This document shows positions 88 to 41,956 of a stretch of DNA of 64,000 nt, one piece after another; the stretch's first letter is position 1, and each line of letters opens with the position of its first letter. The stretch is from contig NZ_CP144918.1 of assembly GCF_036700095.1 (NCBI RefSeq), positions 2,419,001 to 2,483,000 of the forward strand, in the 5' to 3' direction. The DNA comes from Pelagerythrobacter marensis (GTDB lineage Bacteria; Pseudomonadota; Alphaproteobacteria; Sphingomonadales; Sphingomonadaceae). The notes beneath the pieces are model-generated. The model searched no databases and was not told the DNA's origin. It saw nothing but the letters and a program-made list of their open reading frames with translations. Position numbers and translations under genes: made by a program.

Positions 88-726
88 GTGTCGCCCGGCA
101 ATAGCGCCGGCGCCTTTCCCATGCGCGGACGATCGATTTCGTTTTTCCACGAGCAACGTGTGTTGCGAGCCATTGCCGGAATCGCGCTCTCGCTGATCCT
201 GGTCGGGGCGGTTCCGGGCGGTGTCGCTCCGGCAGTCGGCGCCGCGCCGCGGACTGAGGTGGGGCTTCCGCTGGCCAATGAGGCGAACCCTTACGAGCGG
301 CCGGTCGCGAGAATGATGACGCTCCTGGCCGGCTTTACCCACTGGCCCGACCGCCCCGAGTCGCTGCGTCTGTGCGTTGTGCAGCCGGCCGATCACGCCG
401 GGGGTTTGACAGCATCGGGTTTTGCCCGCGAAACGGGCATCCGCACAACTCTCGTGACGGCGCGCACCGTCGCCGAGGAGAATTGCCAGATCGTCTACGT
501 GGGACGCATGTCGATTGCCGAACAGCGCGCGATTACCGATGCCTTTCGCGACCGGCCGACGCTGACGGTGGCCGAAAACGATCCGGCGTGCCGCAGCCGG
601 GCGATGGTCTGCCTGTTGTTCGGCACCGATTCGCTCTCGTTCCGCCTGAATATCGATGCCGTTTCGAGATCCCGCGTCAGGATCGACCCGCGGGTGCTGC
701 GCATGGGCATGGGGGCGTCGCAATGA
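88..726 (+). CDS. YfiR-like periplasmic regulator (DUF4154)
   Basis: Predicted periplasmic repressor of the diguanylate cyclase encoded next to it. The sequence has a basic N-terminus, a hydrophobic segment with alanine-rich cleavage region (about residues 26-53), then a YfiR-type domain beginning at NPYERPVARMMTLLAGFTHW. The later motif TLTVAENDPACRSRAMVCLLF holds the paired cysteines seen in YfiR. In Pseudomonas, YfiR binds the periplasmic part of YfiN and keeps it inactive; that role is inferred from family and gene order. GTG at 88 gives the full frame, but ATG at 121 would give a more usual signal peptide and is equally possible. The stop overlaps the start of the cyclase gene (ATGA). 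Confidence 0.75.
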   Translation: MSPGNSAGAFPMRGRSISFFHEQRVLRAIAGIALSLILVGAVPGGVAPAVGAAPRTEVGLPLANEANPYERPVARMMTLLAGFTHWPDRPESLRLCVVQPADHAGGLTASGFARETGIRTTLVTARTVAEENCQIVYVGRMSIAEQRAITDAFRDRPTLTVAENDPACRSRAMVCLLFGTDSLSFRLNIDAVSRSRVRIDPRVLRMGMGASQ

Positions 727-37528: not shown

Positions 37529-37573
37529 AGGGTGATTCTCGTAACGGATCGGTCTGCTTCGGATGGGCGGTCG

Positions 37574-37604
37574 GTCCCTTGGGCGCGGCGCGCGCCCAGG
37601 GGAC
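37574..37604 (-). terminator. Attenuator-type hairpin before leuA
   Basis: On the minus strand GTCCCCTGGGCGC pairs with GCGCCCAAGGGAC (13 bp, one G-U) around a 5-base loop. No U-run follows. The 3' arm can also pair, over 10 bases, with CCCTTGGGCG at the end of the leader peptide gene, which would stop the hairpin from forming. Confidence 0.65.
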
Positions 37605-37614
37605 ACGCGTCAAT

Positions 37615-37665
37615 TCACGCCCAAGGGCGAATAAGTCGAAGCAGGATTAGTCCGTTGCGTGCCAT
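37615..37665 (-). CDS. leuA leader peptide
   Basis: Sixteen-residue open frame MARNGLILLRLIRPWA on the minus strand, about 90 bases before leuA. Four of its residues are Leu (codons CTA, CTG, CTT, CTT; CTA and CTT are rare in this GC-rich window) and two are Ile. Stalling at these codons when leucine is short would leave the 3' part of the leader free to pair with the 3' arm of the hairpin at 37574-37604, letting transcription continue. The role is inferred from layout, but the match to classic leucine attenuation is good. Confidence 0.75.
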   Translation of the reverse strand: MARNGLILLRLIRPWA

Positions 37666-37715
37666 GCGCCCGGCAATGGGCGAAAATTGCCCGAAAGGCA
37701 AGGCGCACTCTCGCA

Positions 37716-38381
37716 TCACTGCGTGTCGCGTTTCTCGAAGGCCACGCTGAATTCCAGTTCGACGTCGTCGCCGACCATCGGAACGCCGAAGCCGAGGCCG
37801 AAATCCGAACGCCGGATCGTGGTGCGCCCCTCGAACCCCACGGTTTCGTATTCGGTTTGCGGCGCGGTGCCGGCGCCGGTGAAGCGCGTTTCCAGCGTAA
37901 CCGGCTTCGTCACGCCGTTGAGCGTCAGATCGCCGGTAACTTCCGCCGTCATGCCGCCCGGGCTGACCTTCACGGCGGTCGAGGCGAAGCGTGCGGGCGC
38001 CGGCTCCGGGCCGAAGAAATCGGGATCGCCCCCGTCCTTGCCCGGCCGCAGCAGGTGTTCGCGCAGGCCCGCACTGGGCACGGTCACGCTGGCAACGGGG
38101 ATCGTCACTTCGACCGTTGCCTGGCCGGGATCCGCGGGATCGAGTTCCAGCGTGCCCTCGACATCGCCGAATATACCGAAATAGTCGTTGAAGCCCAGGT
38201 GATCGATCCGCCACCCGACCATGCTGTGCGCGGCGTCGGCCTGATAGGTTCCGCCGGTGATCCGCGTGGGATCGACCCGGCCCGGGGCTTCGCTGGGCAT
38301 CCCCTGGGCGATTAGCGTGGTTGTGGCCGCCAGCCCGAGCGTGGCGGCGCCGATGGTAGCAATCACGGTTTTCTTGCGCAT
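37716..38381 (-). CDS. YceI-family periplasmic protein
   Basis: Secreted lipocalin-like protein that may bind isoprenoid lipids. It has 221 residues with a signal peptide (KTVIATIGAATLGLAATTTLIAQ), then the YceI beta-barrel: GTYQADAAHSMVGWRIDHLGFNDYFG, DLTLNGVTKPVTLETRF and RSDFGLGFGVPMVGDDVELEF. The gene lies between ilvC and the leuA leader on the same strand; nothing in it links to amino-acid synthesis. Confidence 0.88.
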   Translation of the reverse strand: MRKKTVIATIGAATLGLAATTTLIAQGMPSEAPGRVDPTRITGGTYQADAAHSMVGWRIDHLGFNDYFGIFGDVEGTLELDPADPGQATVEVTIPVASVTVPSAGLREHLLRPGKDGGDPDFFGPEPAPARFASTAVKVSPGGMTAEVTGDLTLNGVTKPVTLETRFTGAGTAPQTEYETVGFEGRTTIRRSDFGLGFGVPMVGDDVELEFSVAFEKRDTQ

Positions 38382-41904: not shown

Positions 41905-41950
41905 CCAGGTTCCTTCCGTTGCCCGATCGACTATGCGACAGAATATGATA

Positions 41951-41956
41951 TGTCAA
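41951..41956 (-). promoter_or_regulatory. Candidate -35 element before ilvB
   Basis: TTGACA on the minus strand in an AT-rich patch, with CATAGT 15 bases downstream as a poor -10. It lies just past the miaA stop and would drive the ilvBN transcript. Evidence is weak. Confidence 0.3.

Follow-up and report, generated by a model that had tools for sequence, protein, structure and literature searches.

The leu and trp leaders of enterobacteria are attenuators that combine regulatory codons with a U-tract terminator, and an ilvIH attenuator in Alphaproteobacteria was reportedly predicted by Vitreschak in 2004. In the accessible parts of its description, the actinobacterial LEU element is a leucine-coding leader situated before leuA, without a terminator and with a conserved pseudoknot, whose Leu codons are able to pair with the Shine-Dalgarno box of leuA (PMC1262725); mutations in an actinobacterial leuA leader had some effect, though not one that matched classical attenuation, a point that counts against a translational model (PMC1262725). 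Excerpts of other reports describe the leuA leader mRNA of S. lividans as leaderless (PMC8079986), the Caulobacter ilvBN attenuator as containing Ile and Val codons and a rho-independent terminator (PMC4117421), and rnTrpL/peTrpL of S. meliloti as a leaderless leader ORF, i.e. a Trp attenuator that doubles as a small RNA (PMC10117765). Among the literature matches listed, open-access sources describe no leuA leader from Alphaproteobacteria, an earlier prediction being possible, and the available excerpts of PMC8632094, PMC4833913, PMC2965389, PMC1273637 and PMC4046766 contain no description of the leader element analysed here.

Judged from these partial descriptions, the LEU element is the closest known system to the leader found upstream of leuA in the window (the whole 64,000-nucleotide stretch of Pelagerythrobacter marensis DNA that was analysed), the likeness being one of layout rather than of demonstrated kinship. 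Both have a leader ORF with Leu codons directly before leuA (here in 59 of 59 loci across the class and 86 of 87 regions from near relatives), lack a terminator, and contain leader codons complementary to the leuA Shine-Dalgarno sequence. The present leader differs from what is described for LEU in a helix (A:B) formed by its 3' codons around the stop and in the LRLxRP motif. Pairing of the Leu codons themselves with the Shine-Dalgarno sequence gave a mixed picture: it exceeds swapped controls in 44 of 58 class sequences, and in the window's own family the complementarity lies in different leader codons, the Leu-codon segment not exceeding swapped controls. With the enterobacterial leu and trp attenuators it shares a leader peptide with regulatory codons and, in the clade whose leaders end in RPWA, mutually exclusive structures; unlike them, it has no U-tract terminator, and control is predicted at the leuA ribosome-binding site. 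Compared with the excerpts on Caulobacter ilvBN, the leader peptide, the branched-chain pathway and the alphaproteobacterial host are common to both, whereas here the codons are those for Leu, a rho-independent terminator is absent and the operon is different. As described in part for S. meliloti rnTrpL, an alphaproteobacterial amino-acid gene is preceded here by a leader ORF that is leaderless (in our case by prediction); the Trp attenuator and the small RNA role are particular to rnTrpL.

The leader and leuA lie on the minus strand, which the initial annotation had not specified. The 187-base gap between a YceI-like gene and leuA holds the leader frame followed by segment B, and the features of the locus are as follows.

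38381-37716, minus: YceI-like gene (NF002994, 95 bits, below the cut-off of 232)
37696-37701, minus: TTGCCT, -35-like element in the promoter predicted for the leader (sequence and aligned relatives)
37673-37678, minus: -10-like element CATTGC of the predicted leader promoter (sequence and aligned relatives)
37665 (ATG) to 37615 (TGA), minus: leader ORF MARNGLILLRLIRPWA, 16 codons (LRLxRP-type frame in relatives)
37652-37659, minus: 5' arm of helix P1, CGCAACGG, leader codons 3-5 (partner 37547-37540, beside the leuA Shine-Dalgarno sequence)
37650-37648, 37644-37642, 37641-37639 and 37635-37633, minus: leader Leu codons CTA, CTG, CTT and CTT, respectively
37637-37644, minus: 5' arm of helix P2, CTGCTTCG, Leu codons (partner 37561-37554, from the fold)
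37618-37629, minus: segment A, CGCCCTTGGGCG, codons RPWA (A:B covariation)
37574-37604, minus: hairpin T; its 3' arm shares bases with B and is a competitor of A (from the fold; clade-specific)
37576-37585, minus: segment B, CGCCCAAGGG, complement of A (best complement of A)
37554-37561, minus: 3' arm of P2, CGAAGCAG (sequence)
37538-37547, minus: 3' arm of P1, CCGTTACG, with the weak Shine-Dalgarno-like CGAG of leuA (37541-37538)
37528-35840, minus: leuA, encoding a TIGR00970-type (leuA_yeast) 2-isopropylmalate synthase (818.4 bits, cut-off 697.4)

The best-matching solved chain for the LeuA encoded in the window is 1sr9, a 2-isopropylmalate synthase from M. tuberculosis. The genes ilvC, ilvH and ilvB are found upstream of leuA, likewise on the minus strand, so that the YceI-like gene (37716-38381, minus) interrupts a branched-chain amino acid cluster in the order ilvB, ilvH, ilvC, yceI-like, leuA. 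Before ilvB, just past the upstream reading frame, we observed a promoter-like TTGACA - 15 bases - CATAGT (41930-41956, minus).

The initial annotation had described a leucine attenuator in this gap, and its statements about the sequence hold. The 16-codon frame carries four Leu codons (CTA, CTG, CTT, CTT), three of which are CTA or CTT, and these were correctly called rare, as they make up 0.6% and 8.2%, respectively, of the Leu codons in 34 long ORFs of the window. The leader end CCCTTGGGCG (37627-37618) is an exact 10-base complement of segment B (37585-37576), the strong hairpin reported after the leader, GTCCCCTGGGCGCG-CGC-CGCGCCCAAGGGAC (37604-37574), folds with -24.9 kcal/mol, and it is indeed not followed by a U-run, scans for intrinsic terminators listing no site in the leader. 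The RNA from the leader to leuA is predicted to fold at -59.6 kcal/mol, a stability that none of 200 dinucleotide shuffles attains (z -4.96).

To compare near relatives, we took the leuA upstream regions of seven genomes of the window's genus (including its own) and of the best 80 loci among genome contigs, mostly named Sphingomonadales. A motif search found an LRLxRP-type frame in 86 of these 87 regions; the sole relative without it, L047, was left out of all leader counts. The leaders fall into a clade of 68 (including that of the window) with RPWA, or something close to it like RPRA or RPWAA, before the stop, hereafter RPWA, and a group of 18 that stop after RP, hereafter RP*. The annotation's suggestion of conserved Leu codons amid variable sequence is borne out in the N-terminal codons, which differ among relatives, and fails at the 3' end, where LRLxRPWA as a whole is conserved, partly because its codons make up segment A. 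A 24-base pattern from the 3' end of the leader (at most two mismatches) was matched in 329 of the 397 family genomes, against about 10 of 397 for the reversed pattern; its matches at L095, L097 and L100 in the class resembled chance and were set aside. On these sequence comparisons, the leader frame and its structure are not a product of chance.

Upstream of the leader ATG, with positions counted from the nearest in-frame ATG, the aligned relatives have A at -12 in 63 of 84, and T at -36 and -35 in 56 and 49 of 84, respectively. Given sigma-70 spacing, transcription is predicted to start at or beside the leader ATG; the sequence thus suggests a leaderless transcript that begins at the ATG or 1 nt before it.

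The presence of Leu at two of the leader codons is not free evidence for leucine sensing, because both the LRLxRP search and the covariance model described below (R1) were built to select it; the free evidence lies in the third bases, in the CGA codon and in the variation elsewhere in the leader. Among the 86 family leaders, the Leu codon preceding CGA is CTT in 38, CTG in 28 and CTA in 20, and the last Leu codon is CTT in 84 and CTA in two, a codon choice that leans towards rare Leu codons. All 86 have CGA as their Arg codon, while CGA accounts for 3.4% of the Arg codons in the 34 ORFs of the window. In 58 leaders from the wider class (L139, for which the leuA start was not found, was left out of the class codon, pairing and opening tests), CGA is exchanged for a Leu codon in five, and the residue before Pro is R in 28, C in 11, G in 10, S in five, H in two, and N and T in one each; with seven kinds of residue at this position, no peptide motif is kept.

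Segment A corresponds to the RPWA codons, or to RP-stop-GCG in RP* leaders. When segment B was located as the best complement of A, 81 of the 86 leaders scored at least 18 of 20 points, a value reached by only 1% of the best matches in shuffles that preserved base composition only. When 43 sequences were aligned, 30 chosen from the 86 near leaders and 13 from other families, 97.4% of the cells in the A:B helix are paired, against at most 64% in slid registers; six of the ten pairs are changed on both sides, a number met by five of 500 shuffles, and the covariation score is equalled by none of the 500. The hairpin within the A-B loop is more stable than in shuffles (mean z -1.8 in RPWA, -2.3 in RP* and -1.7 in the class). 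The hairpin that shares B is far less general. Compared with shuffles preserving base composition only, it is in excess as a group in RPWA (68 sequences, p 1e-6), with individual p values of 0.05 or less in only five of the 68, and it is not above shuffles in the 18 RP* or the 58 class sequences. At least five T in the eight bases after B occur in three of 86 leaders, so that hairpin T was rejected as a general terminator by the rarity of U-runs together with its restriction to RPWA. Eight-base stretches with 5 or 6 T are found anywhere between leader and leuA in 29 of 86, an observation that counts against a translational model.

The leader is also complementary to the region in which leuA translation would start. 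In the window, codons 3-5 (CGCAACGG) can pair with CCGTTACG, overlapping the weak Shine-Dalgarno sequence CGAG; this helix, P1, has seven of eight pairs in the window and all eight in the G002 copy (L004), and among relatives two of its pairs are changed on both sides (C-G/U-A and A-U/U-A exchanges). A second helix, P2 (CTGCTTCG with CGAAGCAG), was spotted by eye in near relatives only. In other genera, different leader codons pair with the same leuA site. We evaluated P1 and the leader by Shine-Dalgarno duplex by permutation, omitting 15 of 66 RPWA sequences without CGAG near the start, as well as L025 (no ATG start) and L029 (its only ATG far upstream). In the register of the window, 18 of the 51 remaining RPWA sequences form at least six of eight P1 pairs, and permuted partners reach the observed mean in none of 5000 trials. 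The native duplex averages -10.81 kcal/mol against -8.34 for permuted partners (0 of 20000) and is stronger than the swaps in 42 of 51 sequences; without the own genus and its four nearest relatives (40 left) the count is still 0 of 20000, although these and the following p-values are inflated, since many of the leaders are related. Against shuffles that preserve base composition only, the mean z of the duplex is 1.52 in the 51 RPWA, 1.26 in the 18 RP* and 1.13 in the 58 class sequences (1.28, n=15, and 1.16, n=45, in sets de-replicated to leaders less than 70% identical), and behind these means stand misses, with z below 0 in nine, one and 10 sequences, respectively. For the class, leuA starts were assigned with a simple criterion that may have misplaced some of them. 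Here, pairing between the entire leader and the 5' region of leuA exceeds that of swaps in 42 of 58 (p 1.8e-5), a 15-nt segment around the Leu codons exceeds swaps against the leuA leader in 44 of 58 (p 4e-7), and the Leu-codon pairing falls on the Shine-Dalgarno region (-14 to -8) in 31 of 58. In the own family the Leu-codon segment alone is not above swaps (p 0.12 in RPWA, 0.86 in RP*), which eliminates Leu-codon:Shine-Dalgarno pairing as the sole rule there.

The predicted consequence of ribosome stalling was estimated from the cost of opening the leuA site in folds with the ribosome footprint held open. In 67 RPWA sequences (L029 left out) the opening cost amounts to 7.75 kcal/mol for a ribosome that has reached the leader stop and to 5.28 for one stalled at the penultimate Leu codon, being lower by more than 0.5 in 48; in the 18 RP* sequences the values are 9.66 and 7.79, with a decrease of that size in 11, and in the own genus the cost drops from 9.7-13.7 to 3.8-5.6. 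The change is larger for native than for swapped leaders in 65 RPWA (2.46 vs 0.93, p 9.7e-6; L070, with a short leader, was also left out here) and in the 18 RP* (1.87 vs 1.14, p 0.037), with a modest excess in the class (2.26 vs 1.17; 34 of 58, p 0.015). A stall at the last Leu codon lowers the cost in RPWA from 7.75 to 6.83 only (p 0.15 in RP*); in these model folds, a stall at the last and best conserved Leu codon is predicted to open the leuA site little, which speaks against a simple reading. Scanning the stall position in the seven own-genus leaders gave 4.4-4.6 at codons -2 to -5 from the last Leu, 8.6 at that Leu itself, and 11.4 and 12.0 at the two final sense codons, TGG and GCG, respectively. 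The corresponding values are 5.0 at codon -2, 6.4 at the last Leu and 7.0 at the last sense codon in 30 other RPWA leaders (every second one outside the own genus); 8.2, 9.5 and, at the stop, 10.0 in the 18 RP*; and 7.2, 8.2 and, at the stop, 10.6 in 23 of the 58 class leaders (every second one with a tail of at most 75 nt). Across these four sets the stall contrast is largest in the own genus.

These computational comparisons thus show the conserved leader, its choice of Leu codons, the A:B helix, the complementarity between leader and Shine-Dalgarno sequence and the link to leuA; from them we infer that the leader is translated, that ribosomes stall in it and that stalling works a switch in the direction set out here. 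We are highly confident that a widely conserved leucine leader is real and mediates ribosome-dependent leucine control in some form, and we think it probable that the leader uORF governs leuA through ribosome-mediated attenuation, with translation initiation as the likeliest step of control. In the proposed mechanism, the transcript would begin at or beside the leader ATG, as predicted from promoter spacing, and in the closed state leader codons would pair with the leuA Shine-Dalgarno region (P1, aided by P2 and A:B). With leucine plentiful, the ribosome would pass the Leu codons and reach the stop beside A, P1/P2 would re-form behind it, and leuA would be poorly translated. When charged tRNA-Leu is short, the ribosome would wait at an upstream Leu codon, covering the P1/P2 arms, A:B would form ahead of it, and the leuA site would be left open so that leuA is made. 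The attenuation layout proposed by the initial annotation therefore survives in part: the leucine leader, its varied N-terminus, the changing third bases of the Leu codons and the conserved A:B helix agree with it, while the hairpin competing for B turned out to be clade-specific and U-runs follow it in three of 86 cases only. Its fallback, action through the start of translation, fits best, given the leader/Shine-Dalgarno complementarity and the predicted opening by an upstream stall.

The main rival, next after translational control, is Rho-dependent transcription attenuation, in which the same stalling would decide whether Rho loads on a free, untranslated, C-rich and G-poor stretch between B and leuA. 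In this stretch C outnumbers G in all 68 RPWA sequences (C 0.37, G 0.19), compared with C 0.33 and G 0.30 in a control region 400-280 nt upstream of leuA in 87 sequences, and the absence of a U-run after B in 83 of 86 leaders also agrees with Rho; but the excess of C is less marked in RP* (16 of 18; C 0.32, G 0.25) and is not seen in the class (32 of 58), and the complementarity to the Shine-Dalgarno sequence is left unexplained, so that we regard this route as rather unlikely. Classical transcription attenuation, with hairpin T (37604-37574) as terminator and A:B as antiterminator, draws on the window species, where the folds predict that B pairs inside T when the ribosome is at the stop (0.88) and that A:B forms when it is at the penultimate Leu (0.96), and on the group excess of T stems in RPWA. 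That same lack of a U-tract, the ordinary T stems of RP* and the class and the empty terminator scans make it improbable.

The remaining explanations dispense with leucine starvation as the signal, and we give each of them very little chance. TnaC ends in RP-stop, as do 18 of the 86 leaders, and LRLxRP is near-invariant in the family, so that arrest of the nascent peptide at the LRLxRP(WA) C-terminus, the peptide instead of Leu starvation acting as sensor, had to be weighed; the seven kinds of residue before Pro in the 58 class leaders, where A is nevertheless preserved by the third base of that residue's codon and by the Pro codon, and the replacement of CGA by a Leu codon in five of them point to constraint on the RNA and the Leu codons rather than on a peptide motif, and on these grounds this reading was rejected. 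A purely structural 5' UTR, in which the open frame is fortuitous and leucine is not sensed, would be compatible with leader translation being deduced from sequence instead of proven directly, but it does not account for an ATG at a set distance from the -10-like A (63 of 84), for Leu third bases that vary with a leaning to rare codons, or for leuA being next in 59 of 59 class loci.

The reach of the element was assessed with R1, a covariance model comprising the Leu-Arg-Leu codons (CTNCGACTT), A and B, at a match threshold of E 0.001. R1 matches 63 of 385 genomes of the class, once each, with five matches in the own family and 58 in about 36 other families, the latter including its 13 non-family training sequences. 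At the 59 loci checked (46 outside the training set and 13 inside; own-family loci L114-L117 were left out), leuA is always the next gene, within about 200 bases downstream. The LeuA behind 56 of them is of a type about 23-29% identical to that of the window, and behind three it is of the window's type (58%, 58% and 77%); the element therefore accompanies leuA of either type. The same leader thus stands before two LeuA types about 25% identical to each other (L152, L157 and L139 vs the rest of L118-L176), which suggests that leuA was exchanged behind a kept regulator, or else that the leader moved. In a sample of the phylum, R1 was found in 23 of 349 genomes, every match being inside Alphaproteobacteria.

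A still wider reading, in which the codons of a leaderless ORF serve as the anti-Shine-Dalgarno sequence of leuA in a widespread alphaproteobacterial sensor, retained across leuA exchange and convergent with LEU, is offered tentatively, as a serious possibility that falls just short of an even chance. If it is true, the ribosome waiting for leucine would itself uncover leuA, and a large bacterial class would gain a defined, testable mechanism by which leucine governs the first committed enzyme in its own biosynthesis. It would also provide an independent parallel to the actinobacterial element, whose describers, in the available excerpts, left the mechanism open, and an example of a regulator that outlives replacement of the gene it regulates. 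R1 is a searchable model, and the exact base pairs are given here for mutation.

The 24-base pattern is absent from 68 of the 397 family genomes (e.g. G011, G024, G058, G082, G049, G064), and R1 matched four of 30 of these. The N-terminal 156 residues of the LeuA encoded in the window served as query against 15 of the other 26, and this LeuA type was absent from all 15, six having only matches of 27-30% identity and nine having no match; genomes of the latter kind may possess another LeuA or be leucine auxotrophs. As for second copies of the leader, R1 gave a single match in the window's own genome and one each in eight family genomes, where the pattern had given two in five and one in three. 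In an Rfam 15 scan of the window only three tRNAs reach the gathering score and zero families do so over the leader element, the best sub-threshold match there being P17 (15.6 bits vs a cut-off of 45, E 0.095). The same scan of 16 related loci returned one unrelated match, a terC RNA (RF03067, 57.7 bits) at positions 555-615 (minus) of L108, the locus of one leader relative. Finally, most of the 18 RP* sequences (e.g. L046, L048, L058) possess a second conserved stretch just 5' of leuA, CTTGCCG ... GCGATAAGG, which may alone sequester the leuA Shine-Dalgarno sequence.
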